From positions 1 through 55,786 of the forward strand of contig JAJDTT010000304.1 in the NCBI GenBank assembly GCA_022827025.1: 55,786 bases of DNA. The letters run 5' to 3'. The stretch comes from Acidobacteriota bacterium (lineage in GTDB: Bacteria; Acidobacteriota; UBA6911; RPQK01; JAJDTT01). This document shows, in pieces, positions 34,646-52,566 of the stretch. The translations under genes and the position numbers were made by a program. Each line of letters begins with the position of its first letter. Position 1 is the stretch's first letter. The notes below the pieces were generated by a model. It did not search any database. It was not told the origin of the DNA and saw only the letters and a program-made list of their open reading frames with translations.

Positions 34646-34988
34646 CCACCGCGGCGCCATTTCCGGCGGTTTCGATCAATTCTCCGCCAGTGGTTGAAAG
34701 CACGAGATTCCGAGAATGGTAGGGGCGACCCTTGTGGTCACCCTCTCCGGGCCCATCAGTGAGGGACGACCGCGGGCACATACGAGGGGGGGCCGACGTC
34801 GCTCCGGCGTGGCTTGAGCACGGGAGTGGGACCGCTTCGTCGCGGTCCTCGTTCTCCCCTGCCTCGCCTGTTCTCACGAACCTCCGGGAAAGTGGGGGAA
34901 GTCCTCCACCCCCAGCTTTGCTCCGGAAGACAGCTGCGTCTATATTGTTGTGCTCCAGCGGGAAACAAGGTCCATAGAGGGAGAATCG
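34646..34988. other. repeat-rich intergenic region upstream of the PhyH target gene
   Basis: These 343 bases hold no gene. They contain a GTAGGGGCGACC-family repeat (34719-34745) and a hairpin at about 34822-34858, where GGACCGC pairs with GCGGTCC inside an outer GGGAG/CTCCC pair. A GAGGGAGA Shine-Dalgarno lies at the right end for the gene at 34989. The cluster of palindromes suggests a site of repeated insertion. Confidence 0.55.
34719..34745. repeat. GTAGGGGCGACC-family palindromic repeat
   Basis: GTAGGGGCGACCCTTGTGG and following bases form a short hairpin (GGGCGACC against GGTCACCC, one mismatch). It matches 55752-55777 almost exactly and the reverse complement of 24934-24961 in outline. 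Confidence 0.7.
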
Positions 34989-35750
34989 ATGAGCCTCAAG
35001 AGCTACTTTGACGAGAACGGCTACGTCACCGTGGACAACGTCTTCACCCCTGCGGAGATGGACGAACTCATAGCCCGGGTGGACGGCATGGAAAGGCGGG
35101 AGATTCCATACCCCGAGAGCGATATCAAGTGGGAACCGGCCAATCCCTCCGCGCTCCGCAACGCCTTCGGATTGCTCCATCGAGACCCGGCCTTTCGGTC
35201 CGTGGCCACGCATCCCAAGTTGGCCTCAGTCGTAGAGCAGATCCTGGGGCCCGATCTGGACATCTACGCCGACGGACTCTTTGCCAAGCCGGCGCTGGAC
35301 GGGGGCTTGGTCCCGCCCCACCAGGACATGTACTACTGGAGTTTCCAGCCCTTCAGGATGCTGACCGCCTGGATCGCGTTGGAGGATGCGACCCGCGAGA
35401 ACGGGTGCCTCGCCGTGATCCCCGGAAGCCACAAGTTGGGCCTCCTCGATCACGAGCATTCGAACGTTCCCGGGAATACGTGGAAGCTGACCCAGGAGGC
35501 CCTGAACACTCTGGGGGATGAGATCCCGGTGGAGTTGAGCAAAGGCAGCGTGAGTTTCCACCATTGTCTGGTCTATCACCGGAGCGAGCCCAACCGGAGC
35601 CCGCGCTCCCGGCGCGCCTACACCGTGATCTTCATGACCGGCGAATCCCGATGGGTGGGGGAGGAGGACTACCGGTACCCCTTCCTGCACGTTCAGGGAA
35701 AACCGTCCCCCGCATATGAGGCCATGAAGCACGTCCGGGTGGACGTATAG
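34989..35750 (+). CDS. PhyH-family dioxygenase whose 3' end is the island target
   Basis: This phytanoyl-CoA dioxygenase-like enzyme of 253 residues is clearly different from the tandem trio. Iron ligands are His111 and Asp113 (PPHQDMYYWSFQ) with a distal His (SFHHCLVYHRS, His192 or His197), and Arg206 or Arg209 could bind 2-oxoglutarate. ATG 34989 follows GAGGGAGA; the ATG at 34950 is not supported. The last 110 bases before the final codons (35636-35745) are repeated at 50211-50320 and, in part, at 51638-51723. The gene is therefore intact but sits at the left edge of the accessory region, like a gene that hosts insertions at its 3' end. Confidence 0.9.
   Translation: MSLKSYFDENGYVTVDNVFTPAEMDELIARVDGMERREIPYPESDIKWEPANPSALRNAFGLLHRDPAFRSVATHPKLASVVEQILGPDLDIYADGLFAKPALDGGLVPPHQDMYYWSFQPFRMLTAWIALEDATRENGCLAVIPGSHKLGLLDHEHSNVPGNTWKLTQEALNTLGDEIPVELSKGSVSFHHCLVYHRSEPNRSPRSRRAYTVIFMTGESRWVGEEDYRYPFLHVQGKPSPAYEAMKHVRVDV
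35636..35745 (+). repeat. direct repeat copy 1 (3' end of PhyH gene)
   Basis: A 110-bp segment inside the PhyH coding sequence. Copy 2 (50211-50320) differs at only two positions by eye. Copy 3 (51638-51723) matches 35664-35750 with about 11 differences. Copies 1 and 2 bracket the five-gene operon; copies 2 and 3 bracket the ATPase gene. Confidence 0.9.
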
Positions 35751-35942
35751 TCCTCAATTCGACACTTGTCGTCAGCGAGAACCGACCCACCAGGCTTCGG
35801 AATTTCGCCACGTTATCGATCCCTGTAGTATTGACTGTCTCAAGCAAGAATCCGAACGTACCGGCGTGTTGTTGAAGGCCGAGAGGGATTCTGCTGGGAT
35901 GCGGATAGTCGAAGTGCGTTTAACCAACTGACATAGAGTGTC

Positions 35943-38900
35943 ATGACCGCTGACTCCAAGGGCCGCGAGCTCTTCATCGTCGACAACAGTGTCTCCGGTT
36001 GGACCGGACTCCGGTACTTGGAGGAATGGTCCAGCATTGCGAATGCGTTCGATATTGCGACCGGATACTTTGAGATCGGTGCCCTGCTTGCCCTCGACGA
36101 CAAATGGCAGGGGCTCGACAAAATCCGGATCCTAATGGGGGCAGAGACTACTCATCGGACTCGGAAGGCCATTCTCGAAGCCGTCCGGGCGCAAGCGCTC
36201 AACAAGCTTGATGAAAGCATCGAGGAGGACAAGGAACCGAACCCCTTCCTCAACGGGGTCCCTGCAATCCTCGACGCGCTCCGCTCCGGGAAGATCGAAT
36301 GCCGTATCTTCGCCAAGGCCAAATTCCACGCCAAGGCCTATATCACTCACGCGAAGCTTGAGATCATCGGTGCCCAGGCTCTGGTGGGCTCCAGCAACTT
36401 CACGCGTCCGGGTCTCACCAAGAATGTCGAGCTGAACGTCCAAATCCAGAGTGCGCGCGAGGTCGCGCAGCTTCAGGAGTGGTTCGAAACGCACTGGAGA
36501 AAAGCGACCGGGGTTACCGAGGCCGTCATCGAGACGATCTCCCGTCATACGCACCTGTATTCGCCATTCGACGTCTACACGAAGGCACTCCAACAGTTCT
36601 TCCGGGGGCACGAGCTGACCGCGACCGAGTGGGACGAGACAAGGTCGCGGATGTTCCCGAACCTGGATCGATATCAGAAGGAAGCGTACTGGGCGCTCAT
36701 GAAGATCGCCCGGCAGCATCGCGGTGCGTTCCTCTGTGACGGGGTAGGTCTTGGCAAGACGTTCGTCGGTCTGATGCTGATCGAGCGGCTCATCCTTCAC
36801 GAGGGCAAGCGTGTTGCACTGTTCGCTCCTAAGGCGGCCAAGGAGGGGGTGTGGGAACCTCACTTGCGACGATGGCTTCCGCACATCGGCGGAGTCGGAG
36901 GTGGCGGGGACTTTAGCAACCTAGCCGTCTTCAGCCACACGGACCTTGGACGAAAGGGCGAGTTCCCGGAGCGATTCCGGCGCATTTCGGAACTCGCAGA
37001 TATCGTCATAATCGACGAAGCGCACCACTTCCGGAATCCGGGCCGTCGTCGTGACCCCGACAGAGGAATCGAACCGTCGCGCTACCATCGCCTGTTAGAG
37101 CTGCTCGGCAACCCGGAACGCCCCAAGACAGTGTTCATGCTGACGGCTACACCCATAAACAACCGCCTGAGTGACTTTCGCCACATGACCGAACTCTTTA
37201 CGGGTGGCGACGACACCTATTTCGCGCGCACGATCGGCATTAACCACCTGCGGGCGCACTTCAACCAGATGGAAAAGATGCTTCGCAGCCGTGTGGAGCA
37301 GGATGCGGTGGATGCTGCCGAGCACATGACCGAAGCCCAGGAAATCCTCTTCACCGACACATTCTTCCGCCAACTCGTCGTCCAGCGGAGCCGCGCTTAC
37401 GCCCGGGAGAGCCAAGTTCGGGAGTACGGTAAAGCAGCTGCCTTTCCCAAGCGTAGGGACCCTCAGGTAGCGGCGTACTCGATCCGGAAAACATACGGGC
37501 GGATGCTCGAGCTGTTCGAGAAGGCCTTCGCCAAGCAGAGCCCGCTCTTCACGCTCCCGATGTACTACCCCCTCTATTGGTACAAGGGGCCGGACAAGGA
37601 GATCGACCCATTCGAAGAAAACCGCCAGAAGCAGGTAGTTGGCCTAATCCGGACTAACTTTCTAAAGCGCTTCGAGAGCTCCGTCGCCGCCTTCGAGCTC
37701 TCCTGCGAGCGCCTGCTCAAGAAACTGCTTGCCTTCCTTGAGGTTCACAGCCAGAGCGACTCCGAGAAGAAACGCGTAGAGCGCTGGAAGGCGCAGAACG
37801 CCGAGGTCCTGGGCTATGGTGGCCGGCGCCAGCTCGAGCTCTGGGGCGAGGAAGACAACGACGCGGACGATGAAGACGTCGTCCCCCAGGAAATGCTCGA
37901 CGCGGTGGAACGCCTCGACAGGGCCGAGTACGACGTCGAGGAGATGATGTTCGAGACCTTCCTCGACCTTGATCAGATCGTTCAGTTCCTGGACGAGGCT
38001 CGGAAGTTCGAGCCGAAACACGACGACAAGCTCCAGAAGCTCGTCCGCCTGCTCAAGACAAAAGCTGTGGTCGACCAGAAGATTTTGATCTTCACCGAGT
38101 TCGCCGACACGGCCCGCTACCTGAAGCGTCAACTAGACGAGGTCGATATCGAAGGCGTTGAGCAGGTGGACAGTGCCACGAAGAAGAATCGTTCAGACGT
38201 AATCCAGCGCTTCGCGCCCTACTACAACGGGCTCTCGTCTCCGGAACTCGCCGAGCAGGGCCGCGAGGAGACCCGTGTTTTAATCTCCACCGATGTTCTC
38301 TCCGAGGGTCTCAACCTGCAAGACGCCTCGCGCATGATCAACTACGATATCCACTGGAACCCAGTCCGCCTCATGCAGCGTATCGGCCGAGTTGATCGGC
38401 GCATGAATCCCGCAATTGAGGAGCGGCTCGTCGCCGACCATCCCGAGGCGGCCGCCTCGCGAGGCAAGGTCTGGTTCTGGAACTTTCTCCCTCCCCAGGA
38501 ACTGAACGAGATCCTATCGCTTTACACCAAGGTCACGCAGAAGACGCTCCTGATCTCCGAAACCCTCGGTATCGAGGGGAAGAAACTCCTCACGCCGGAG
38601 GACAATTTCGAGGCGCTGAAGGAGTTCCATCACGCCTACGAGGGCACACGCACGGCCGTGGAGGACATGCACCTTGAGTACCAGGCGCTTATTCAGGCCG
38701 ACCCGGAACTGGAGGCCCGTCTCGCTCGCTTCCCCGGCGCGATTTTCAGCGGTCGCAAGCGGTTGGTGAAGGGCGTGCGCGGCGTCTTCTTCTGCTACGC
38801 GCTTCCCGCCCTCGACAAGGAGCAGAACGAGTTTACCGAGGAGGCCGGCACCACCCGCTGGTACCTGTACGACCTCGACCGCGAGACCATCCTCGAGGAA

Positions 38901-39092
38901 CCGGGTGAAATAGTCGTGAGCATCCGCTCGAAGCCCAAGACGCCCCGACGCTGCACCGCTGAGGAGAAAACGCTCCTAGACATCCGAAAACGCATCAACA
39001 AACATATCAAAAACAGCTACCTGAAGCGTGTGGATGCCCCCCTCGGGGTCAAACCGCGGCTACTCTGCTGGATGGAGTTGAACGAGAGCTAA
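35943..39092 (+). CDS. PLD-nuclease/SNF2-family helicase (restriction-type)
   Basis: The 1049-residue protein joins a phospholipase-D-like nuclease domain to an SF2 translocase. The nuclease half has one HxK site at His129-Lys131 (KFHAKAY) and [10 protein letters not shown] just after. The helicase half has CDGVGLGKT (265-273), IDEAHH (357-362) and [10 protein letters not shown] (399-408). The second RecA domain has [25 protein letters not shown] and [13 protein letters not shown]. It should move on double-stranded DNA and cut it, with the next gene supplying recognition and modification. It is the first gene of the five-gene operon, 4 bp before the methyltransferase gene. DISARM and BREX also use such helicases, but their marker genes are absent. 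Confidence 0.88.
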
Positions 39093-39096
39093 ATCG

Positions 39097-42000
39097 ATGC
39101 CGAACGACCACCGCAAGCGCCTCGCCCGAATTCGTCGCTTCGACCAACTCGTATGCTACCTCCGCGACGAGCTGAATTGGCCAATCGACTCGGATGACTT
39201 CGAAGACCTGTTTTTCGACTATAGCCCCGAGGAACTCGGCATCGACGAGAAGAACGCGGCCAAGATCCAGAAGATCAAGCGCCTGAGACCGCTCGTACCA
39301 ACCCAGCCTTGGGGAATCTTCTACATTAAGTTCGAGCCCACGCGCCTGCCCGTCGTGGCACTGCGCCGTATCCTCAATCAGGTGGCGCTAAAAAAGCGCC
39401 CCTCGGCCAACAAGCCCGAGCGCCAGGCCTGGGCCACCGAGGATCTTTTGTTTGTCTCCAGCTACGGCGAGGTCAAGGAACGCCAGATCGCGTTCGCCCA
39501 TTTCTCGAAGCCCGACGACGGCCACGACCTGCCCACCCTCAAGGTACTCGGCTGGGACAACCTCGACACGCCGCTCCACCTAGACGCCGTCGCCCGCAAA
39601 CTGACTGACTACCTAACTTGGCCCGACGATGAGGACGACCCAGACACTTGGCGTGAGCAATGGCGCGGCGCCTTCACACTGCGCCACCGCGAGGTTATTA
39701 CCACCTCGAAACGGCTCTCCGACCGCTTGGCCAAGTTGGCCCGCAAGATCCGCAACCGCATCCGGAGAGTTTTGGCCATCGAGACCGAATCCGGGCCACT
39801 CACCAAGCTGATGACGGCGTTCCAGGCCGCCCTCGTCCACGACCTGGACGAGGATGGCTTCGCCGACATGTATGCCCAGACCATCGCGTATGGGTTGCTC
39901 TCGGCGCGCATAACCGACCCCGAGCGGCGTACAGCCGACGACCTCACCGCCCATATGCGGACGAACCCATTCCTGAAGGATCTGATGGAAACCTTCCTTC
40001 ACGTCGGTGGTCGGCGCGGCAAAGCCGGCGGCCCGGGCATTGACTTCGACGAATTAGGCGTTTCCGAGGTGGTAGAATTACTCGATCACGCCAGGATGGA
40101 GGCTGTCGTTCGTGACTTCGGCGACCGCAACCCCCAAGAAGACCCGGTTATCCACTTCTACGAGCATTTCCTCAAGGCCTACGACAAGAATCAGAAGGTT
40201 AGCCGCGGCGTCTTTTACACCCCGCGCCCCGTGGTCTCCTACATCGTGCGTTCGGTGGATGAGTTATTGCGGACGGAGTTTGGGTTAGAGGATGGTCTTG
40301 CGGACACTACAACTTGGCGGGAGATGGCAAAGGGCCAACAGGATCTCAGGATCCCCGATGACACGCCTCCCGACCAGGCATTCGTACAGATCCTTGACCC
40401 TGCTGCGGGGACCGGCACCTTCCTCGTTCAGGTCATCGACCTTATTCACAGGACGATGGTGGAGAAGTGGAAGTCACAGGGCCACGGCGAGAAGAAGATC
40501 AATGCGTTCTGGAACGACTATGTCCCGACGCACCTGCTGCCGCGTCTGCACGGCTATGAACTGCTGATGGCGCCCTATGCCATCGCGCATCTCAAGGTCG
40601 GCCTAAAGCTCTATGAGACCGGATACCGCTTCCGGAGCGACGAGCGCGCGCGAGTGTACTTAACTAACGCGCTGGAGCCAGCGGGAAGCAAGCAGCTCAA
40701 ACTGGACTTCCTGCCGGCCCTGGCGCAAGAGGCCCAGGCGGTCAATGAGATCAAACGAAAGCAACGGTTCACGGTGGTGATTGGGAATCCGCCCTACTCA
40801 GGCATATCGTCGAACATGGGTCCGTGGATCGATGGCCTTCTCAAGGGTCGCCTCCCAGATGGGACGGCGACCTCCAGCTACTACCGTGTCGACGGCAAGC
40901 CGCTCGGTGAGCGCAAGGTGTGGCTTCAGGACGACTACGTAAAGTTTATTCGCCTCTCGCAGTGGTTGCTCGATGCCGCTGGTGCGGGCGTTCACGGCTA
41001 CATCAGTAATCACGGCTACCTCGACAACCCCACGTTTCGTGGGATGCGGTGGTCGCTCATGCAGTCCTTTCGTCGAATCTGCGTGCTCGACTTTCACGGA
41101 AACCTCAAGAAGAAGGAGACTCCGCCGGGGGGCGGGCGCGATGTCAACGTATTCGACATCCAGCAGGGCGTGGCCATTGGGCTCTTCACGAAGTCTGACA
41201 CAGTCAGCAGATGTGTCCGGCACGCTGATCTCTGGGGCGAACGGGGACAAAAGTACCGTTGGCTATGGGAGCATGGGTACGCCGACACCGGATGGTCGCA
41301 ACTGCAACCGAGGCCGCCGTTCCGTCTGTTCGAGCCCTACGACCACGTAGGAACAAGTGCCTACAATAGATGGCCAGCAATCAACGAGGTGATGACCGTA
41401 TACGTGACTGGAATCGTCACCGCGCGCGATGCATTCGTCATCGATTTCGACCGGGAAATCCTCCGAAGTCGGATCGTCGACCTGCGATCCAGGTCACTGT
41501 CCGACGACGAAATCCGGACCAAGTACTTCGTCGGGAAGGGCTCGAAAAAGTATCCGCCCGGAGACTCTCGCGGATGGAAACTTCCTGCTGCACGGCGGAA
41601 GATCCGCGAGGACGATAAGTGGGATGAAAGGTATAAGACTGTGCTATATCGTCCGTTCGACATCCGGGAAATTTACTATGTCCCGTGGATGGTGGACTGG
41701 CCTCGGACCGAAGCCATGCCTCACATGTTGGCAAGAGAGAACTACGCGATTGTTACGGCTAGGAGCAACAAGTTTCCGGAACCCAATCACTTTTTCTGTA
41801 GCCGCACAATTGTCGAAACAAAGTGTGGTGAAGCCAGCACACAGTCTGCCACGTTTCCACTTTATCTTTATCCCGGCGTCGGCAGGACCGACAGGGCACT
41901 TTTCAGCCGTTGGTCGAAGGGTAAGGACGGTCGCACGCCGAATCTGGCGTCGAGGTTTGTCGACCAGATTGCCGCCGCCGCCGAACTACGTTTCATCAGC

Positions 42001-43134
42001 GACGGTCGTGGCAATCTCCGCGAAAACCTCGGCCCCGAGGACGTCCTAGGCTGGATGTACGCGGTATTCCACAGCCGCTCCTACCGCGAGCGCTATGAGG
42101 CCCCGCTCAAGCTCGATTTCCCCCGCGTGCCGCTACCTGGAAGTGGTGAGCTCTTCCGAAAGCTCGTGGAGGCTGGACATGAGTTGCTGAGCCTTCACTT
42201 ACTCGATTCCCATAGGATCGATAGGTTAATCAACACGTTTATCGGCCCGATGAACCCCGAAGTTGGTCGCGTCGGCTGGTCGGACGGCACCGTCTGGCTC
42301 GACGCCAGGAAGACCATCGCCCGCGAGGGCCACCGTGCGATCAGATCCGGTACCGTCGGCTTTCGGGGCGTGCCCGAGGCGGTCTGGGAATTCCACATCG
42401 GCGGCTACCAAGTCTGCCACAAGTGGCTCAAGGATCGGAAGGGCCGCACGCTCTCGGACGAGGACATCGCCCACTACCAGAAGATCGTCGTCGCCCTGAA
42501 CGAGACCATCCGTATCATGGCCGAGATTGATCATGTCATCGAAGCCCACGGCGGCTGGCCCGACGCGTTCCAGACCGGGCCGGAGGCGGATGCGGCATCG
42601 AAGCGGACGAGGAAGGTGGTTCCAATCTGGCCGCGCACGATCGAGCCCGCGCGCGAAGACCTCTACGTCAACTGCGTTCCACTCGTCCCGCTTAGGGCGG
42701 CCGCTGGCGGCTTCGGCGATACGCAGCACATCGATGACAACGACTTCGAATGGGTCGCTGTCGAGTCGCGGCATCGTCTGCGAAAGGGGATGTTCGTTGC
42801 CCAGGTCATCGGCAAGTCCATGGAGCCCGCTATCCCCGACGGAGCCTTGTGCCTCTTTCGCGCTCCGGTCGAGGGAACGCGCCAGAGCAAAACGGTCCTC
42901 GTCCAGCTCCGAGACGCTACCGATCCCGAGACGGGTCAGCGCTACACAGTCAAGCGCTACAAGAGCGCAAAGTCGAGGGTCGGCGACTCCTGGCGCCACA
43001 GTAAGATCACCCTTGAGCCCGTCAACCCGGACTTCCACCCTATCGTGCTCACCGGCGCGGACGAGGGAGAGTTCCAAGTAATCGCGGAGCTCGTCGAGGT
43101 TTTAGAACACAAGGCGTCTCTCGGCGGAGAATGA
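39097..43134 (+). CDS. Type ISP-like N6-adenine methyltransferase fused to an S24 peptidase domain
   Basis: The 1345-residue protein has an amino-methyltransferase core: [18 protein letters not shown] near residue 353, the SAM motif [11 protein letters not shown] near 431 and catalytic NPPYS near 562. The region [13 protein letters not shown] to [13 protein letters not shown] (about 852) and FPLYLYPG resembles the C-terminal specificity part of Type ISP enzymes. The last 130 residues are unexpected: a LexA/UmuD-like S24 domain with [16 protein letters not shown] (nucleophile Ser near 1240), a candidate general-base Lys in YTVKRY near 1283, and [10 protein letters not shown]. This suggests a methyltransferase that can cleave itself, or is controlled by such cleavage. 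It lies 4 bp after the helicase gene and 6 bp before the ATPase gene. Confidence 0.85.
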
Positions 43135-43140
43135 CTCCCG

Positions 43141-44979
43141 ATGAAGGTGCACGCTCTTTCGATACGCGACTTCCGCGGCGTTCAGCACGCCGACTTGCGT
43201 TTCGACCATCATGATGTGCTTGTGGGTCCCAACGGCACCGGCAAGAGCACAATCATCGACGCTCTGTCTCTTGTCTTCGGCCGCACTCGCCTAGTGCGTG
43301 ACCTTACGGAACACGACTTCTACGGCAGCCTTCCTGAAGCGACGAGTCGCATCCGCATCGTCGCTACCTTGGCGGGATTCGATGGTGATGACCCGGAGCG
43401 CAACGACACTTGGTTCCGCGAAGGTCGAGCAGTTCCCAAGTGGTGGAACTCTTCGACGGGCCAGTTAGAGCCCGAGCCTGGTGATCATGCCGAGACCCTT
43501 TGCGCACAGATTGCCTTTGCGGCGCGTTTCGACTTGGAGGAACTGGTGGTCGAATCGATCCGCTACTTCCACGATGATGACGACGTTGAAGATCCATTCC
43601 TGGACGATGTTGTCCAGCCCATTCCAATTCGGCTCTTCGACGACATCGGCTACTATGTTCTACCAGCGCGTCGCACCTGGGAAGCAGCCGCATCGTTCGC
43701 TTCGGAGTTGTTCCGCAGGGCCGTCGCGACCGTGGGCGGCATCCCGGCGCGCACTATTCTCCAAGAGCGCGATCGTCTGCGTAGGCCCGCTGATCCGCTG
43801 GAGGAAACGGTGGGCCTCTGTCCATTGGTGGGACGCATCAACCGGCAGTTGGAGGAGTTGTTGCCCGACGCCCCTCGTTTTCAACTCAGGCTCACGGCGA
43901 CGGACTCCGAATCGCTGCTTCGCGCACTGGTACCGCATTACGTTGGCAGAGAAGGTGTTCCACTCCCTGTCGGGCGGCACGGGATGGGCCTGCTCTCGCT
44001 TCAGACCTTCATTCTTCTGCTCGAACTCGGACGAGAGCGGGTTCGCTTAGGTAAGCCATTCCTCTTCGCGATGGAGGAGCCCGAGTTGCATGTCCCACCA
44101 GGAATGCAGCGCCGGTTGGTCTCGCAGGCCGTATCGATCGCCGAGCAGACGATCTGCACCAGTCATTCGCCTCGTGTCGCCGCATTCTACCCCGCGACCT
44201 CGGTACAGATCCTCGATCGCAACCGGGCGCGTCTCGTAGCGATCCCCATGTTGCCAGCGCCCTTGAATGGGAGCGCGACAAACGCGCGACGCAAGCTCTT
44301 TCAGGATGATCGCGTGCGGCTCGTCGAGGCGTTGATGCACCACAGAGTGCTCATCCCCGAAGGACGTAGCGAGTACGAGTGGTTTCGGCTGTTGAGCCAT
44401 GTGCTCGAAACGGGCGACATTGCATTCGACGCCCCCGATACCGACACGCCCGCCTTCGGTACCGTCATAGGCGTGGTGCCGACTCACGATGGAGCGGTGG
44501 AGGAGGTCTACGATGCCCTGCGGTTGTTGCGACGTGGATTGGTTCCTCTTGTGGATGGGGATGACGCCGGAGCCGAGAAGATCGACCGAATGCAGAGTTC
44601 CGACCCGATTCCGGACCTCATCCTGAGATGGCGCGATGGCTGGACGATAGAGGACGCAATAGGCTGGCTCCTTAAGGGCGACGAGGAAGCTGCACTTGCC
44701 GCACTGCAAGACCGAATTGATTGTGATTTCGAGTCCATTGGTGAACTGGTCGATTTGTTCAAGGTCAGCACCGGTCGGGGTCGCTTGAAGACCGACTACC
44801 TTGCCTATCAAGAAGTGGCCTATGTCATCGGTAACCTTCCCGGCTGTCGGACTCGCGCCGCAGATCTACTTGAGGCCGTCACGCTTGCAACACTAAGTAA
44901 CGCGGATGGTTGCGCGTTAATACGGCTAGACGATGAGCACAGCACCGTGGACGCGGCCGTATTCCGTCTCGAACCATGA
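43141..44979 (+). CDS. OLD-family ATPase with TOPRIM nuclease domain (GajA-like)
   Basis: The 612-residue protein opens with an ABC-type ATPase: LSIRDFRGVQHADLRF, Walker A VGPNGTGKSTIIDAL (33-41), VGRHGMGLLSLQTFILLL as the signature region, Walker B FLFAMEEPELH and TSHSPRV. A TOPRIM domain follows, with the acidic LIPEGRSEYEWFRLL and PLVDGDDAGAEK. This order matches OLD nucleases and GajA of the Gabija defence system, in which the ATPase regulates DNA nicking by TOPRIM. It overlaps the next gene, a UvrD-like helicase, by ATGA, the same pairing as gajA-gajB. It also follows the methyltransferase by 6 bp, which is not usual for stand-alone Gabija. Confidence 0.86.
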   Translation: MKVHALSIRDFRGVQHADLRFDHHDVLVGPNGTGKSTIIDALSLVFGRTRLVRDLTEHDFYGSLPEATSRIRIVATLAGFDGDDPERNDTWFREGRAVPKWWNSSTGQLEPEPGDHAETLCAQIAFAARFDLEELVVESIRYFHDDDDVEDPFLDDVVQPIPIRLFDDIGYYVLPARRTWEAAASFASELFRRAVATVGGIPARTILQERDRLRRPADPLEETVGLCPLVGRINRQLEELLPDAPRFQLRLTATDSESLLRALVPHYVGREGVPLPVGRHGMGLLSLQTFILLLELGRERVRLGKPFLFAMEEPELHVPPGMQRRLVSQAVSIAEQTICTSHSPRVAAFYPATSVQILDRNRARLVAIPMLPAPLNGSATNARRKLFQDDRVRLVEALMHHRVLIPEGRSEYEWFRLLSHVLETGDIAFDAPDTDTPAFGTVIGVVPTHDGAVEEVYDALRLLRRGLVPLVDGDDAGAEKIDRMQSSDPIPDLILRWRDGWTIEDAIGWLLKGDEEAALAALQDRIDCDFESIGELVDLFKVSTGRGRLKTDYLAYQEVAYVIGNLPGCRTRAADLLEAVTLATLSNADGCALIRLDDEHSTVDAAVFRLEP

Positions 44980-46259
44980 GCCTCTGCTTGATCGAAGGTC
45001 CAGCTGGGACCGGCAAGACGACGCGACTATTTCAGAAACTTGGGCGTGTGCTTGAAAAGTGTCCGTTGTCGGAGCACCAGCGAGTCCTTGCACTGACCAA
45101 GATGCACGGATCGCGGCGACGCATGGATAATCAACTTCGAGCCATTTCAGGGCTTCGACGGCGGTATCGTTGCTGCACCGCCGATAGCTTCGCATGGAGC
45201 ATCGTGCGGCGCTGGCGAACGCTTGTTCGAAAAACGTCGGCAGCGGAACTGGCCGAGGATGACTATGAGCAGGTCTGTTTACTCGCCGGCGATCTGCTCT
45301 CCGAAGCGATAGTCTCGCGTTGGGTCATCCGGGTATTCCCAATCGTTGTTGTGGACGAGTTCCAGGATTGTAAGCGTGGACAGCTGGCAATGATTTCCTC
45401 GCTCTCCAGCTTGGCGACCTGCATCGTAGCGGCCGATGACTTTCAGGATCTGGAGAGCACCGAAGTGAGTGCTTCAGTCGCGTGGGCACGGACCAATGGT
45501 GAAAGCGAGAGTCTGAGTGACATCCACCGGACGTCAGCATCAGGTCTCCTGGAAGCGAGTCGAGCTCTTCGAGCAGGACGTAACTTTTCTCATAAGGGAG
45601 ATGGCTTCACCGTGCTGGGCGCACACAACCACTACGTTGGGGCTAGCTTCGTTTCCAACAACCTTACGTGGTGGTGGAGATCCGCCGACATCGCGGTTCT
45701 AACTCCAGTTCGTCCCTCCGGCTCGGCATTTGTGCGTGATCTCTTCGCCCGAGTGAAGGCAAAGCCGATTGGCAAGCATCAGGTGGGTCCGTATCAAATA
45801 CCGTGGGAGGTATCGCAGGAAGATGGGTGCGAAAGGTTTATTGAAGGACTTGGGTTGCCCGACGACCCCAATGCTGAGGTCCGCTTTGATGTGCTCTCAT
45901 TCGGTGATGTCGATGGGCCGCGGTGGGGACTTCGCCATTGGATTGACCGGCAGAGGCGCGTCGCCGGAAGGACGACATTCACGGTTGAAGAGATCCAGCG
46001 TGAGGCACGCCGCATCCATCAGCGGTCGAGAGCGTACCGGCGGGTGAGGGCCCGCGGAGTTCGTGCGATGACGATCCATCAGGCGAAGAATCGCGAGTTC
46101 GAATCAGTCATCGTCCTATGGCCCTACCAAGTCGCTGGCGCCATCGAGCGCCAGCAACGCCTGCTATACAACGCGATTACTCGGGCAAAGTTGCGTGTCC
46201 TCGTTGTGGTTCAGAATCCCAGGCGATTGGAACAGCCACCGTTCGTAGCCGTGAGTTGA
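44976..46259 (+). CDS. UvrD/PcrA-like SF1 helicase (GajB-like)
   Basis: The short SF1A helicase of 427 residues has motif I EGPAGTGKTTRLF, motif II VVVDEFQDCK, ADDFQDLES (motif III-like), motif V MTIHQAKNREFESVIVL and motif VI LLYNAITRAKLRVLVVV. It lacks the large 1B/2B insertions of UvrD, as GajB does. It starts inside the stop of the OLD/TOPRIM gene (ATGA), so the two products are made together and probably form a complex. It ends 4 bp before the RecD-like gene. Confidence 0.86.
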   Translation: MSLCLIEGPAGTGKTTRLFQKLGRVLEKCPLSEHQRVLALTKMHGSRRRMDNQLRAISGLRRRYRCCTADSFAWSIVRRWRTLVRKTSAAELAEDDYEQVCLLAGDLLSEAIVSRWVIRVFPIVVVDEFQDCKRGQLAMISSLSSLATCIVAADDFQDLESTEVSASVAWARTNGESESLSDIHRTSASGLLEASRALRAGRNFSHKGDGFTVLGAHNHYVGASFVSNNLTWWWRSADIAVLTPVRPSGSAFVRDLFARVKAKPIGKHQVGPYQIPWEVSQEDGCERFIEGLGLPDDPNAEVRFDVLSFGDVDGPRWGLRHWIDRQRRVAGRTTFTVEEIQREARRIHQRSRAYRRVRARGVRAMTIHQAKNREFESVIVLWPYQVAGAIERQQRLLYNAITRAKLRVLVVVQNPRRLEQPPFVAVS

Positions 46260-46263
46260 TTGG

Positions 46264-49200
46264 ATGATCACCGGTGCTCGCCGTCTTCCACCCCACCACA
46301 TCACCATCCGCGTCCCGTGGCACGACGCGGGCTGGACCGGGACAGTGTGCACCCGGCCGTTGGACAATTCGAGCTGCCTCATCCTACCCCGCATCGGCGA
46401 GGGCAGGCGCGACGACGTGGAAGGGCGTTGTGCCAGCCGGCGGCTCGATCAACTTGACCGTTCCGACCTGCCGCCCTGCGTCGGAGAGCGCGTCTCGTTC
46501 ATGGCACCCTTCGCACTCACTCGGACGATGACGCACCCGTACACGGAATTCTACACGGAGACTCACGGCCACTTCGCTCCCACCCGTTTCGTGCAGCCTC
46601 CGTACTCTGCTGCTGCCGTGCCATTCCGATGGATGCTGCGCGAGAAGGTCGAGGGAAGTGCGAATGATGGCGAGATCGGAATCGCCGAGCGTCTGAAGAT
46701 CGGCTGGGTGCCGGACCGCGAGCCAGACATCCGCAATTACAAAGGCAAGCAGGTCGCGACGGCATGGGCCCAAGAGCGCGGGAATCAGGTCGCACTACTC
46801 GACACCTTTTTCAGCGCGCTCCGGCCGGAGGAGTCACTCTGTTTCTTCTATGCCAAACGCACTCCGCTCTCGGAGCAGTCCCGGCGCGTGATCGTTGGCG
46901 TTGGCCGCGTGCTCTCCGTGGGAGGGGTCACCGAGTACGCCTACAAGGGCAAGCAACCGCCGCTACGGTGCGTGCTCTGGGAGCGCAACGTGGGCCATTC
47001 GATCCGACCGGGCTTCGCGGACGGCTTCCTCTTTCCGTACCAGGAGGCGCTGACGCTCGCTGAACGCGGCGGGGTAGATCCCGAGGAGTTCGTGACCTTC
47101 GCCCCGGACGAGCATTTCGACTCCTACTCCTACGGTTCGGAACTCTTGACCCATGACGGCGCTGTGGCTTCCCTCGTGGCCTGTGCGGCGGCGCTGCACC
47201 GGATCCGCGGCCGGATCGAGGGACCGTGGGACCAAGCCCTCGCCTGGATTGACACGCAGCTCAACCGGTTGTGGAAGGCCCGCGGTGCGTTCCCCGGCCT
47301 GGGTTCGGCACTCTCTGCGTTCGGTTACGAGTGGGGATTCCGGCACGGGAGCCTGCTCGCCTACGAAATCGAACTCCTGCGCGAGCGCGAGGGCGGCGGT
47401 GATCCGTGGACGCTCGTGGACGCCGTGATGAGTGAGCCGGCGAAACTCGGTGGGCCCGTGGCGAAGCTACTCACGGGAGGGCTGCGCAAGGGCTGGAAGC
47501 GCCTCTCCGATGAGCGGCGGGCTTTGCTCCAGCTCCTCGGTCGTTGCGCCATCTCGGAGGATCAGGCGCAGCGCTTCTACGACACCACAGCGCGGGCGGA
47601 TGCCGGCATCGAGGCCAGCGACGCCGAACTGCTTCGAAATCCGTACCTCCTCTTTGAGCGCGACCGGCGTGCAGTCAAACCGATCGCCTTTGGCGCGGTG
47701 GACCGAGGCCTATTCCCGGATGAGAAGGTGCGGGAGCAGTTCCCTGTACTGGAGCCGAGCCGGGTCGAAGACCCGGCGGATGGACGGCGGGTGCGCGCAC
47801 TGGTCGTGGACCTCCTGGAGCACGCAGCGGCTGAAGGACACACGCTGCTCCCCCGGAGTTGGGTGATCCGCAGGGCACGGGAGCGCGCGCTCCAGCCGCC
47901 TTGCCCGCTCGGGGAGAACGTGCTCGACGCCTGCGAGGAGAGCTTCGCGCCGGTCGTCGCTCGCGCGGCAACCCGCGCGGGAGATCCCGCCTACCAAATG
48001 GACCGACTCATCGAGTGCCGCACGATCATCCGCCGCGAAGTGATCGGCCGGAAGAAAGGGAAGTCGCACGTGGGTGATCACGATTGGCGCGGGCTTGTCG
48101 ATGAGGGTATCGATGAGCCGCTGCCTGCGGATCCGGAAGAGCGCAAGCTGGAGACGCGTGCTCGGCGTGAGAAGGCGGTTGCCCTTGAGCAACTCTTCCG
48201 CTCGCGGCTCTCCGTGCTGATCGGCCCGGCGGGGACGGGAAAAACGACGCTGCTGCGGATGCTGTGCTCGCTTCCCGGGCTCGCGGAGAAAGGGCTACTG
48301 CTTCTTGCACCCACGGGGAAGGCACGCGTGCGCCTAGAGGCTCAGACAGGGATGCAGGGCTCTGGTCAGACGCTGGCGCAGTTTCTGATCCGCCAGCAGC
48401 GTTACGATGCGGAGACCGGCGCCTACGTTCCAAGGCCCAGGGTGCCTCGCTGTCGCAACTACCGGACCGTGATCGTGGACGAGTGCTCAATGCTGACCGA
48501 AGAGCAGCTAGCAGCACTGATCGATTCACTCAATTTCGTCGAGCGAATCGTGCTCGTTGGGGATCCACGCCAGCTCCCGCCGATCGGGGCCGGTCGCCCA
48601 TTCGTGGACATAGTTCGAGAGCTCGAACCGGAGAACGTCGAGAGACTCTTCCCGCGCTACGGTCCGGGTTATGCCGAACTCACAGTTCCGCGACGGCAGC
48701 GACGCGGGGCAGACGTGCTCCTGGCGTCGCACTTCGATGGGAAACCGCTCGATCCTGGCGCAGATGCCGTTCTTGAAGAGGGCGCGGAAGGAACTCAAGA
48801 ACGCCTCCGGCTCGTGCGATGGAACCACCCGCAGGAGCTTCATGAGAAGCTCGTCGCCGAGCTGGTGGAGGCGCTGGGTATGGCCGGCCCGGACGACGAA
48901 CTGGGCTTCGAGGAATCGTTGGGAGGTGCGCGTCGCGGAAACATCCCATGGGCCTTCTTCTGGAACCGGTTCGCCGACAACCCCGGAGCCGCCGCCCGGG
49001 CGGAAGCTTGGCAGATGCTGTCGCCCGTACGTGCCGGGCTCGTTGGGGTGGACGCGCTTAACCGAATGCTCCAAACGCGGTTCCGGGTGAAGGTGCGCGA
49101 GCTTGCCGAGACGGAGGGTTGGGGCCGCAAGGTACCGCGTCCCGTCGGCCCGCAGATGCTCCTTTACGGCGACAAGGTCATCAACGTCATCAACCAGCGT

Positions 49201-50067
49201 CGGCGCGATGTCTGGCCGAGGCCCGCTCGGGAGGCTTACCTCGCCAACGGAGACATCGGCATCGTCGTCGGACAGTACAAGACAAGGAAATTCAGGGGCA
49301 TGCCGTGGAAACTCGAGGTTGAGTTCGCCGGGCAGCTCGGCCCCAAGTACGGATTCTATCCCGGCGAGTTCGGAGACGAAGGCCGCAACCCGCTCGAACT
49401 GGCCTACTGCCTTACGGTGCACAAGACTCAGGGAAGCGAGTTCGGCGTCACCTTCGTCGTGCTCACCAACCCCTGCTGGCTGCTCTCCCGCGAGCTCTTG
49501 TACACGGCGCTGACCCGCCACCAAGACCGGCTGGTCATCCTGCACGAGGGCCCGCTTGTCGAGTATCGTGGCTTTGCAGGCGACGAGCACTCGGAGATCG
49601 CCCGGCGCATGACGAACCTCTTTGTGGACCCGCTACCGTGCGAAGTAACGGTCAACGCTCAGAAACGTTTCCTTGAGGAAGGGCTTATTCATCGGACCGA
49701 GCGCGGTGATCTGGTGCGCTCAAAGTCCGAACTGGTGATTGCCGACAAGCTTCACGCCCGCGGGATCGACTACGCCTATGAGCAGCCTCTCGTGCTGTCC
49801 AATGGTCGCACCCGCTACCCGGATTTCACGATCGCGGATTACGCGCGCGGCGTGACCTTCTATTGGGAGCATCTCGGCATGCTCGACGATCCGGGGTACA
49901 AAGATCGATGGCACCGGAAGCGTAAAGAGTACCTGGAGTGCCAAATCAAGCCTCACGAGGACGGCGGAGGCCCGGATGGAACGCTGATCGAAACCCGCGA
50001 CGAGCCGGGCGGAGGCTTGGATGCAGCGGTGATCGCAGCGGTGATCGATGGTGTGATCTTGGGTTGA
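46264..50067 (+). CDS. RecD-like SF1 helicase with C-terminal PD-(D/E)XK-type nuclease domain
   Basis: This 1267-residue protein begins with about 600 residues that I cannot assign. The SF1B helicase core shows IGPAGTGKTTLLRML near 652, LAPTGKARVRLE, VIVDECSML near 737, VGDPRQLPPIGAGRPF near 765, YCLTVHKTQGSEFG near 1049 and RELLYTALTRH near 1076. The last 110 residues contain KSELVIADKL (Glu), RYPDFTIAD (Asp) and FYWEHLGML (Glu), the spacing of a restriction-endonuclease fold nuclease. The fusion of a RecD2-type helicase with a nuclease suits end processing or degradation of invading DNA. It is the last gene of the operon. Confidence 0.82.
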   Translation: MITGARRLPPHHITIRVPWHDAGWTGTVCTRPLDNSSCLILPRIGEGRRDDVEGRCASRRLDQLDRSDLPPCVGERVSFMAPFALTRTMTHPYTEFYTETHGHFAPTRFVQPPYSAAAVPFRWMLREKVEGSANDGEIGIAERLKIGWVPDREPDIRNYKGKQVATAWAQERGNQVALLDTFFSALRPEESLCFFYAKRTPLSEQSRRVIVGVGRVLSVGGVTEYAYKGKQPPLRCVLWERNVGHSIRPGFADGFLFPYQEALTLAERGGVDPEEFVTFAPDEHFDSYSYGSELLTHDGAVASLVACAAALHRIRGRIEGPWDQALAWIDTQLNRLWKARGAFPGLGSALSAFGYEWGFRHGSLLAYEIELLREREGGGDPWTLVDAVMSEPAKLGGPVAKLLTGGLRKGWKRLSDERRALLQLLGRCAISEDQAQRFYDTTARADAGIEASDAELLRNPYLLFERDRRAVKPIAFGAVDRGLFPDEKVREQFPVLEPSRVEDPADGRRVRALVVDLLEHAAAEGHTLLPRSWVIRRARERALQPPCPLGENVLDACEESFAPVVARAATRAGDPAYQMDRLIECRTIIRREVIGRKKGKSHVGDHDWRGLVDEGIDEPLPADPEERKLETRARREKAVALEQLFRSRLSVLIGPAGTGKTTLLRMLCSLPGLAEKGLLLLAPTGKARVRLEAQTGMQGSGQTLAQFLIRQQRYDAETGAYVPRPRVPRCRNYRTVIVDECSMLTEEQLAALIDSLNFVERIVLVGDPRQLPPIGAGRPFVDIVRELEPENVERLFPRYGPGYAELTVPRRQRRGADVLLASHFDGKPLDPGADAVLEEGAEGTQERLRLVRWNHPQELHEKLVAELVEALGMAGPDDELGFEESLGGARRGNIPWAFFWNRFADNPGAAARAEAWQMLSPVRAGLVGVDALNRMLQTRFRVKVRELAETEGWGRKVPRPVGPQMLLYGDKVINVINQRRRDVWPRPAREAYLANGDIGIVVGQYKTRKFRGMPWKLEVEFAGQLGPKYGFYPGEFGDEGRNPLELAYCLTVHKTQGSEFGVTFVVLTNPCWLLSRELLYTALTRHQDRLVILHEGPLVEYRGFAGDEHSEIARRMTNLFVDPLPCEVTVNAQKRFLEEGLIHRTERGDLVRSKSELVIADKLHARGIDYAYEQPLVLSNGRTRYPDFTIADYARGVTFYWEHLGMLDDPGYKDRWHRKRKEYLECQIKPHEDGGGPDGTLIETRDEPGGGLDAAVIAAVIDGVILG

Positions 50068-50210
50068 ATCATTAATCCTCACGCGAGCCCGGCGTTTCGC
50101 AGTCAGGCAATCGCCATGGCCACTATCTTGTCACTGACGCAACGCCCCGATGACCCGGTCCTTGGCCCAAGGTCCCGAAGACGTTGGGTTCTTCGAGCGC
50201 CCCGCTGATA

Positions 50211-50326
50211 GACCGGCGAATCCCGATGGGTGGGGGAGGAGGACTACCGGTACCCCTTCCTGCACGTTCAGGGAAAACCGTCCCCCGCCTATGAGGCCAT
50301 GAAACACGTCCGGGTGGACGGGTAAG
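50211..50326 (+). pseudogene. PhyH 3'-end remnant, direct repeat copy 2
   Basis: Bases 50211-50320 repeat 35636-35745 with two substitutions. The frame still reads TGESRWVGEEDYRY to KHVRVDG then TAA, but there is no start or upstream PhyH sequence: 50210 and before is unrelated. It marks the right edge of the five-gene operon segment. The near-identity to copy 1 means the duplication is recent or kept alike by gene conversion. Confidence 0.88.
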
Positions 50327-50423
50327 CCGGGAACGCGTGCCAGACCCGCCCAAGCGCCCAAGAGCGGAGGCCTCTCCGTTCCTGCGGATTACACAGACAG
50401 ATTCTTTCCTCGCAGTGGATTCT

Positions 50424-50464
50424 ATCCTTGTAAATTATCCATTAGGTGGATAATTTACAAGGAT
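50424..50464. promoter_or_regulatory. perfect 18-bp palindrome overlapping the ATPase start codon
   Basis: ATCCTTGTAAATTATCCA (50424-50441) and its exact reverse complement (50447-50464) are separated by TTAGG. The right arm includes the AAGG ahead of the ATG and the first two bases of that ATG (50463). In DNA it is a good operator candidate. In RNA the hairpin would hide the ribosome-binding site and start. It is AT-rich in GC-rich surroundings. Confidence 0.75.
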
Positions 50465-51632
50465 GATAGAGCGGTATATCAAGCCCCGCGTTCTTGAGGC
50501 GCTTGGTTACCAGGCGGCGGTGGCTCTTATCGGCCCGCGCCAAGCTGGCAAGACCACGCTCGCGCTGGACATCGGCGAAGAGCGCGGGGCGCTTTATCTC
50601 GACCTCGAAGACCGAACCGATCGGCAAAAGCTGAGCGACCCGGCGCTGTTCCTGAGCCATTACGAAGACCGCCTCGTGATTCTCGATGAAATCCACAGAG
50701 TTCCCGACCTGTTTCAGGATCTTCGAGGGGTCATCGACAGCGGCCGGCGGCGAGGAAAACGGACCGGACGATTCCTGATCCTCGGCTCCGCGTCGATGGA
50801 TCTGTTGCGCCAGTCCAGCGAGAGTCTTGCCGGCCGGATCGCCACTATTGACCTGCAGCCGTTCCACATCCTCGAGGTGGCGGGCGGCAGGGACACGCTC
50901 ACCCGGCTCTGGGTGCGGGGCGGCTTCCCGGACAGTTTTCTGGCCGTTGACGGAAGGCGTAGCTTTCTACTTCGCAAGGACTTTATCCGGACGTACCTGG
51001 AGCGCGACGTCGCCCTGTTCGGGCCCCGCCTCCCCGCGGAAACGCTGGAACGACTGTGGGTCATGCTGGCCCACAGCCAGGGAGGCCTGTTGAATGCCTC
51101 CCGGCTGGCTTCGTCATTGGGTGTCAGCGTGCAAACCGTGAATCGCTATATCGGACTCTTGACCGATCTGTTGCTGGTGCGGCGCCTGGCTCCTTTTCGC
51201 GCCAATATCGGGAAACGGCTTGTGAAATCGCCGAAGATCTACATACGCGACAGCGGCCTGCTGCATGCTCTGCTCGGCATTGGCGATTTCAATGCGCTGG
51301 CCGGCCATCCTGTGGCCGGCGCCAGTTGGGAAGGATATGTGATCGAGAACCTGCTCGCGGCCGCCCCGGAACGGACGACAGCCAGTTTTTACCGCACTTC
51401 CGCCGGCGCCGAGGTCGATCTCGTGCTCCAGTTGCCGACCGGCGAACTGTGGGCGATAGAGATCAAGCGGGGCCGCGCCCCGAGACTGGACCGCGGCTTC
51501 CACAACGCCCGCGCGGACCTGAGTCCGGCCCATGCGTTCGTCGCGCATTCCGGCGACGAGCGCTTCCCGGTCACCGAAGGCGTTGAGGCGATCAGCGTCT
51601 CCCAACTGGCGATGTTGCTTCAGAACGCATGA
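50463..51632 (+). CDS. AAA-family ATPase with DUF4143 domain
   Basis: The 389-residue product has an AAA_14-type ATPase domain: ALIGPRQAGKTTLALDI (22-38), LVILDEIHRVPDLFQDLR and RFLILGSAS. A central winged-helix stretch (LNASRLASSLGVSVQTVNRY) follows, then the C-terminal DUF4143 region with GAEVDLVLQLPTGELWAIEI, which has the look of a PD-(D/E)XK fold. These proteins are common and mobile in bacterial genomes and their role is not settled. The gene and its palindromic leader lie alone between PhyH tail copies 2 and 3, so they seem to be a separate cargo unit at the same target. Confidence 0.88.
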   Translation: MIERYIKPRVLEALGYQAAVALIGPRQAGKTTLALDIGEERGALYLDLEDRTDRQKLSDPALFLSHYEDRLVILDEIHRVPDLFQDLRGVIDSGRRRGKRTGRFLILGSASMDLLRQSSESLAGRIATIDLQPFHILEVAGGRDTLTRLWVRGGFPDSFLAVDGRRSFLLRKDFIRTYLERDVALFGPRLPAETLERLWVMLAHSQGGLLNASRLASSLGVSVQTVNRYIGLLTDLLLVRRLAPFRANIGKRLVKSPKIYIRDSGLLHALLGIGDFNALAGHPVAGASWEGYVIENLLAAAPERTTASFYRTSAGAEVDLVLQLPTGELWAIEIKRGRAPRLDRGFHNARADLSPAHAFVAHSGDERFPVTEGVEAISVSQLAMLLQNA

Positions 51633-51637
51633 ATATA

Positions 51638-51723
51638 GAGGACTACCGGTATCCCTTCCTGCACGTTCAGGAAAGGCGTCCCCGACCTACGAGGCCATGA
51701 ATCACGTCCGGGTGGATGTGTAG
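51638..51723 (+). pseudogene. PhyH 3'-end remnant, direct repeat copy 3 (degraded)
   Basis: Eighty-six bases match 35664-35750 with about 11 differences, including a one-base deletion that breaks the frame. It starts 5 bp after the ATPase stop and ends on the equivalent TAG. Its greater divergence suggests an older event than the one that produced copy 2. Confidence 0.82.
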
Positions 51724-51764
51724 GCCGCGAGTCGACGTTGACTGCCGGAAAGAACTTCGCCGCA

Positions 51765-52346
51765 TCAGTCGACTATCGTGATGATGATGGTCTCCCGGTC
51801 CCGACGCTTTCCCAACTGATAGCCGAGAACGCTACCCCCGATTGCTCCGCCGACCAGCCCTCCATACATGAGATAGGCCTCGCTCCGGGACTCTCCGATC
51901 GTGGGGCCGACCAGGGCCAGTGGAACCAGGAAGAATCCGCCAACTCCACCCAGGACGGCTCCGGCTATCCGCACGCTGCTCCGCATTCTCTCCACGCGGA
52001 TGTCCTTGACGGAGTCTCTGGGAATGGAGGTTTCGGAGTCGAAAGCGGCGTGTTTCCAATCGGTGGCCATTGTGACGCGATGGAGATGGATGTTCCCAGG
52101 CAGTACTGCCAGCACATCCCCCCGGACGGCGCCCCCCTCGGCCAGAGATACGGTGACTTTCTTCTCTCCATTCAGGAATCCCGGAAGTTCTTCCCAGGTC
52201 ATTTTCCGGAACTGCTCCGTGCCGGCCCGGAGAGTTTGGGGAGCACAGAACCCGCCGATCAGGACTTGAGCCATCAGAAATGGGAGCAATGCGACAGCCG
52301 TGGTTTTCCTGAGCCTTCGGTTATTTCTGCTTGCGATTTTTCTCAT
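51765..52346 (-). CDS. exported glycine-zipper membrane protein, function unknown
   Basis: The 193-residue protein has an N-terminal basic and hydrophobic signal (RRLRKTTAVALLPFLMAQVLIGG). A soluble part containing KVTVSLAEGGAVRGDVLAVL follows, then two Gly-rich hydrophobic stretches (IAGAVLGGVGGFFLVPLAL and YGGLVGGAIGGSVLGYQLG) typical of glycine-zipper envelope proteins. AAGGAGG lies nine bases before ATG 52346. It is divergent from the C69-type peptidase. No specific role is evident. Confidence 0.78.
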   Translation of the reverse strand: MRKIASRNNRRLRKTTAVALLPFLMAQVLIGGFCAPQTLRAGTEQFRKMTWEELPGFLNGEKKVTVSLAEGGAVRGDVLAVLPGNIHLHRVTMATDWKHAAFDSETSIPRDSVKDIRVERMRSSVRIAGAVLGGVGGFFLVPLALVGPTIGESRSEAYLMYGGLVGGAIGGSVLGYQLGKRRDRETIIITIVD

Positions 52347-52566
52347 GACACCTGCCTCCTTGTGTTTGTTGCTGGTAGATGTGAATTTCTCTCCATAATG
52401 GGCTCACCAAGGAGGGCGGATTTGGACAACCGTCCCGGTCGCCGACCGCGAAAACCGCTATTGGGGAGATCAGTTGACGAGTGGACAGCTCGTGAAGATC
52501 CCTGAGTCCAGTTTGCAAGACAGTGATCTGCTCGAAACCGCAAGCCAAAAAGATGAGGACCCCACC

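Follow-up and report, generated by a model that had tools for sequence, protein, structure and literature searches.

Type ISP restriction-modification enzymes such as LlaGI and LlaBIII combine an Mrr-type nuclease, a superfamily 2 (SF2) translocase, an N6 methylase and a Type_ISP_C specificity domain in one chain. Gabija consists of a GajA ATPase-TOPRIM protein and a UvrD-like GajB helicase, with complex formation and sequence-specific nicking as its defining properties. CglI and SauUSI pair a PLD-family nuclease with an SF2 translocase, CglI with nuclease and ATPase as separate subunits and SauUSI as a single-chain Type IV enzyme without a methylase (PMC5737866, PMC7913695). In BREX and BREX-related (BR/Hma) loci OLD-ABC/TOPRIM units are embedded as backup effectors (PMC12839542), and PrrC inside a Type IC locus is the classical case of embedding (PMC12707154). 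Here we analyzed a five-gene operon in a 55,786-nucleotide stretch of DNA from an Acidobacteriota bacterium (contig JAJDTT010000304.1; the whole stretch is called the window). It is probably a modular defence operon carried on a ~14.5-kb insertion: a restriction core (genes 1-2), interchangeable accessories, and a LexA-like module that would tune restriction.

Operon layout, accessory slot and insertion

The five genes, with lengths in amino acids (aa), were:
35943-39092, plus strand: gene 1 (1049 aa), N-terminal PLD (HxK...N) nuclease and SF2 (SNF2/RapA-like) translocase
39097-43134, plus strand: gene 2 (1345 aa), N6_Mtase, Type_ISP_C and Peptidase_S24 domains
43141-44979, plus strand: gene 3 (612 aa), GajA-like OLD-family ATPase with TOPRIM
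44976-46259, plus strand: gene 4 (427 aa), GajB-like UvrD-type SF1 helicase
46264-50067, plus strand: gene 5 (1267 aa), RecD2-like SF1B helicase with C-terminal PD-(D/E)xK-like nuclease; PADLOC candidate PDC-S68

Successive junctions measured 4 bp, 6 bp, a 4-bp overlap and 4 bp. An earlier reading of the letters (the original prediction) had proposed these five plus-strand open reading frames (ORFs) as a tight operon with restriction-modification and Gabija parts; the re-derived coordinates and gaps all agreed with it, and its domain assignments were confirmed by Pfam, PADLOC and NCBIfam, which were concordant on the content of all five proteins, with catalytic motifs intact and conserved. Gene spacing suggests transcription as one unit; a promoter scan of the operon found no sigma-70-like site, and terminator matches were at chance level.

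A gene-1 scan of 84,980 species genomes yielded about 42 related loci (53-82% identity). Going by record titles, they belong to ten or more phyla, including Acidobacteriota, Pseudomonadota, Actinomycetota, Chloroflexota, Planctomycetota, Spirochaetota, Elusimicrobiota and Lentisphaerota. Genes 1-2 formed a conserved pair, usually without genes 3-5: the N-terminal region of gene 2 came next after gene 1 in 32/34 loci with at least 4 kb downstream. The full set recurred in none of the 32 other gene-1 loci that had 8.5 kb or more of downstream sequence, and in none of them did gene 3 or 4 come after genes 1-2; the five genes were thus rejected as a recurring system. Gene 5 followed genes 1-2 in five of these 32 loci (L051, L069, L077, L079 and L080). 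The closest scaffold with gene 5 was L069, whose genes 1, 2 and 5 were 82, 73 and 79% identical to those of the window; there the slot between genes 2 and 5 was occupied not by Gabija but by a DRT1 reverse transcriptase (RT-nitrilase; PADLOC Drt1a, 1270 bits), and a 57%-identical DRT1 protein lay in the same slot of L080. Such exchange of cargo in a constant 1-2-(slot)-5 scaffold is our strongest argument against an accidental arrangement.

On the gene-1 tree, six changes were required to explain the six carriers of gene 5, and well-supported branches make at least four of these unavoidable. Gene 5 was present in 5/297 genomes of the phylum, and comparison of 5/32 with this base rate, taken from one phylum only, gave 2e-4 (binomial) and 1e-3 (Fisher). 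Its protein matched PDC-S68 over the full length (1518 bits; aa 10-1264 against profile positions 5-1218 of 1221), with no sequence difference, its place as last gene of a composite operon being what distinguishes it here. It also matched helicase_RecD2 (1.2e-54) and the RecD-like AAA_30, and the helicase motifs and the SKSE...PDF...EHLG nuclease motifs were conserved in 14 homologues. The original prediction, an operon matching no named system, needs correction in this respect: gene 5 is a strong match to an existing PADLOC candidate.

In other loci gene 5 was often alone (among them L017, L019 and L158) or beside other methyltransferases, and in L147 it overlapped HsdM by 4 bp, with HsdR beyond. 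On a small Paracoccus plasmid (L161:4035-11012) a PDC-S68 helicase-nuclease gene began 18 bp after that of an ISP methyltransferase, without gene 1, possibly a two-gene restriction system. PDC-S68 overlapping HsdM with HsdR downstream was seen at L147:10252-15983 and L163:4376-7390, and at L124:3967-4812 an ADP-ribosylglycohydrolase gene overlapped the end of the PDC-S68 gene by 4 bp. Scans of viral contigs gave no relative of genes 3 and 5, and for gene 1 a single genes 1-2 locus without gene 5.

The operon occupies a discrete ~14.5-kb insertion (35746-50210) flanked by two 110-bp direct repeats, 98.2% identical to each other:
35636-35745, plus strand: left repeat (3' end of phyH); left edge of the insertion
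50211-50320, plus strand: right repeat; right edge of the insertion

Three congeners (same genus) presented the empty site, in which window positions 34906-35745 and 50211-51633 were joined with one 110-bp copy each; in one of them (G003) the DUF4143 side was matched only in part. As one discrete insertion that these congeners lack, the block appears to be more than chance. The DNA between the repeats contained these five genes only, none of them for a recombinase; direct repeats and a target at the 3' end of a gene are reminiscent of site-specific integration, for which a recombinase would have acted in trans. The DUF4143 gene (50463-51632; PDC-S01) was rejected as a sixth operon gene: it lies outside the insertion and was found at the empty site in two congeners (92-94% identity) and partly in the third. 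A third, diverged partial repeat copy (89% identical) was located at 51638. Relative to two congeners, a second small insertion (51634-52575) begins at this copy; the third congener had about 4 kb of other DNA at that place.

Restriction core and Gabija pair

Pfam matches of gene 1 were PLDc_2 (3e-12), RE_NgoFVII (1.5e-7) and Helicase_C (8.5e-19), with ResIII also called, and the PLD HxK and SF2 motifs were conserved across 38 homologues. The match of gene 1 to DrmD was confined to the helicase part. Gene 2 was divided into three parts:
39097-39675, plus strand: N-terminal region (aa 1-193), putative adaptor to gene 1
39673-42522, plus strand: N6-adenine methyltransferase and Type ISP specificity domain (aa 193-1142; Type_ISP_C 1.3e-77)
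42634-43116, plus strand: C-terminal LexA/cI-like autoprotease module (aa ~1180-1340; Peptidase_S24 1.5e-5)

The NPPY motif was conserved in 32 gene-2 homologues, and the closest solved chains to aa 193-1142 were 7lo5, LlaBIII (4xqk) and LlaGI (5ffj). Genes 1-2 thus resemble Type ISP enzymes in the Type_ISP_C specificity domain with an N6 methylase and in the SF2 translocase with a nuclease. They differ in that nuclease/translocase (gene 1) and methylase/specificity (gene 2) are two polypeptides, in the PLD domain of gene 1 where the Mrr-type PD-(D/E)xK nuclease would be expected, and in the additional N-terminal region and LexA-like module of gene 2. The pairing of a PLD-family nuclease with an SF2 translocase is shared with CglI and SauUSI, but gene 1 is unlike CglI in joining both in one protein, and genes 1-2 are unlike SauUSI in possessing a methylase.

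The first ~193 aa of gene 2 were retained where the methylase part differed in kind (L096, L101 and L104), and stand-alone plasmid ISP enzymes mostly matched gene 2 only from aa 193 or later; we therefore read this region as the part that would couple gene 2 to gene 1. It matched no Pfam family, and a fold search of its predicted model (predicted local distance difference test, pLDDT, 78) against PDB gave no match at E <= 0.001.

Other arrangements were observed around this pair. At L103:6427-10329 a YhcG/DUF1016 nuclease stood in place of the methylase after gene 1, followed by a shortened LexA-like ORF (83% identical to the window module) and an AAA_13 (PDC-S06, RloC/PrrC-like) protein. Gene 2 of L079, L080, L088 and L098 bore another C-terminal extension, with two similar stretches around LGY.RTG / MG.RRTG; it was 53-59% identical among L079, L080 and L098, and replaced the LexA-like module or, in L088, lay behind it. 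A 551-aa ORF without Pfam or PADLOC match (L079:3935-5590) overlapped the gene 1 start by 4 bp, and a homologue (88%) preceded gene 1 in L081.

Gene 3 encodes an OLD-type ATPase (AAA_15/AAA_21) with GajA as best PADLOC match (9.7e-46); its Walker A/B, EG..(E/D) and DGD motifs, comprising the ATPase and TOPRIM acidic residues, were conserved in 13 homologues. Gene 4 matched UvrD_C_2 and, best in PADLOC, GajB (2.2e-22), with helicase motifs conserved in 7-8 homologues. As in Gabija, a GajA-like ATPase-TOPRIM gene is followed by a UvrD-like gene, here with a 4-bp overlap; unlike Gabija, the two lie within a restriction-modification operon. Relatives (40-46% identity) were found on plasmids of Rhizobiaceae, Aminobacter, Pseudomonas, Robbsia and Ruegeria: gene 4 came directly after gene 3 in all ten regions inspected, and genes 1-2 were never beside them. 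Genes 3-4 are an autonomous Gabija-type pair, and a GajA-GajB complex with sequence-specific nicking would be expected of their products. A more distant pair (34/32%) lay between HmaA and HmaB of the Hma system of another Acidobacteriota genome (L150), with DUF499 further downstream. Nesting of a Gabija-like pair in this BREX-related system was seen at L150:5783-15569 and L162:2413-5217.

BREX-related loci are similar in that they enclose OLD-ABC/TOPRIM units along with a core of methylase and helicase-nuclease, and type-2 BR helicases bear an N-terminal HKD nuclease, as gene 1 does (PMC12839542). They are unlike the present operon in that BrxC, PglZ, the DUF499 ATPase, DUF3780 and the tripartite core are absent from the five genes, whose methylase is of the ISP type. 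The DISARM set (DrmB/DUF1998, DrmA and DrmC) was not found, and neither was a helicase of DruE length with the DEAD/MZB domains of Druantia. The five proteins contained no DUF1998/MZB, BrxC or PglZ domain, in agreement with the original prediction that markers of these three systems are missing.

The LexA-like module of gene 2

The S24 domain of gene 2 is the least expected part of the operon and appears, by its residues, to be a complete LexA/cI-like autoprotease module. Ala1203-Gly1204, Ser1241 and Lys1286 occur in autoprotease order, with spacings of 37 (Gly/Ser side) and 45 (Ser-Lys), close to those of lambda cI (37 and 43) and not far from those of LexA (34 and 37). The Ala(Cys)-Gly scissile pair and Ser, Lys dyad of the LexA/cI/UmuD family are thus present and self-cleavage is predicted. 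Alignment A1, of 13 modules from unrelated hosts, showed no variation at A-A-G, Ser and Lys. A search of PDB with the 13-row profile returned LexA first (1.8e-4), then lambda cI and then UmuD, while the single sequence of the module gave no match in PDB.

The module was present in five complete gene-2 proteins, a distribution that takes five changes on the gene-1 tree. Members of its family (40-76% identity) also lie at the end of Type I HsdR proteins (L057-L064 and L205), and were found on ResIII proteins (L172, L174, L175 and L206, including a PADLOC Type III Res beside its Mod), on a Type IV-like enzyme (L180), on Druantia DruE (L065 by PADLOC; L066, L067, L169 and L171 with the same size and C-terminus) and on Schlafen-g3 helicases (L176 and L178); in L177 an EcoEI-type HsdR comes after the module. 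Within the phylum 26/297 genomes carried it, mostly in frames of 540-2070 aa. No copy was found in phages, and plasmids gave one weak unannotated Halomonas match. In the module tree ISP-borne copies were mixed with HsdR-borne ones, suggesting exchange between hosts, and a single ISP clade was not rejected (p-AU 0.19). Searches of the open literature, with bioRxiv and subscription journals outside their scope, found no description of S24/LexA domains on restriction enzymes.

From this distribution it is conceivable, and we hold it tentatively, that a portable LexA-like module, appended to many kinds of restriction enzyme, lets the RecA DNA-damage signal switch restriction directly. A structural or binding domain devoid of autoprotease activity is the less likely option. 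It would fit the module of L172, which reads AAAS at the cleavage site, and that of L103, in which the cleavage site is lost; it would not explain the invariance of A-A-G, Ser and Lys in 13 modules from unrelated hosts, the Ser-Lys spacing near that of lambda cI, or the fact that the nearest solved proteins are LexA, cI and UmuD.

Proposed mechanism, alternatives and meaning

The biochemical steps that follow are inferred from what is described above: the genes with their motifs and orders, the insertion, the exchange in the slot and the presence of the module. Genes 1-2 would constitute an ATP-dependent restriction-modification system, Type ISP-like and split across two proteins, in which gene 2 would read the site by its ISP specificity domain and methylate the adenine of self DNA. 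At an unmodified site gene 2 would engage gene 1, probably via the gene 2 N-terminal domain, and gene 1 would translocate and then cut with its PLD nuclease. Gene 5, a recurrent partner of methyltransferase-based systems, would probably degrade the cut DNA, and genes 3-4, an autonomous Gabija in the slot between core and gene 5, would serve as a second line when restriction is blocked. The LexA-like module would probably cleave itself with RecA-single-stranded DNA after DNA damage, and its release from the specificity domain would thereby tune restriction.

Several points weigh against this reading: only the smaller part of the loci, five of 32, has gene 5, and genes cluster in defence islands even when they are not functionally coupled; the base rate of 5/297 was taken from a single phylum, whereas the 32 loci span many; and the LexA-like fold rests on sequence profiles, because the AlphaFold model of the module was unusable (pLDDT 39). 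Alternatively, a PDC-S68 gene might simply have come to lie next to a Gabija pair and a restriction-modification pair in a defence island, with only transcription in common. Genes 3-4 and gene 5 are indeed autonomous elsewhere, and G+C content at third codon positions was lower in genes 3-4 (0.61-0.66) than in genes 1, 2 and 5 (0.75-0.77). Such a chance stack is nevertheless improbable given junctions of 4-6 bp or overlapping, the recurrence of genes 1-2-5 across the gene-1 tree, and the Gabija pair nested in another helicase-methylase operon (Hma, L150). The original prediction had held that a five-gene order not found in other genomes would mean a chance stack of known systems: the order was found nowhere else, yet the operon is not a plain chance stack, since 1-2-(slot)-5 recurs in five other loci.

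The original prediction itself favoured one integrated, layered system of five components, where Gabija nicking and the degradation of DNA would depend on modification status. It saw the operon correctly, and a tight operon on a single insertion carrying exactly five genes is what such a system would look like, but it over-read the operon as one system. Gabija pairs and the gene 1-2 pair were mostly found apart and without the other genes, no extra domain connects genes 3-4 with genes 1-2, and the proposed gating of nicking remained unsupported; we regard this model as very improbable. The modular operon is the reading that we retain.

Given the precedents of BREX-type loci and PrrC (see above), the principle of embedding is known. 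A 2024 preprint by Payne et al. reportedly deals with embedded defences. For the genes 1-2 core and its combination with Gabija and gene 5 we found no description in the open literature. The operon presents a restriction core as a scaffold with an accessory slot, filled by Gabija here and by DRT1 in L069 and L080, with gene 5 kept, and with it the notion of backup effectors reaches beyond BREX-type loci to a split ISP-like system. The clean empty site and the closest relatives are available for asking whether the defence layers cooperate. Alleviation of EcoKI restriction proceeds by ClpXP proteolysis of restriction complexes, not by an enzyme-borne protease (PMC4231737, PMC11109961). If the RecA signal does act on the module, this switching would be a built-in restriction alleviation, or else an alarm that arms the nuclease upon phage DNA breakage, and an active module would put several classes of restriction enzyme under the direct influence of the SOS signal.

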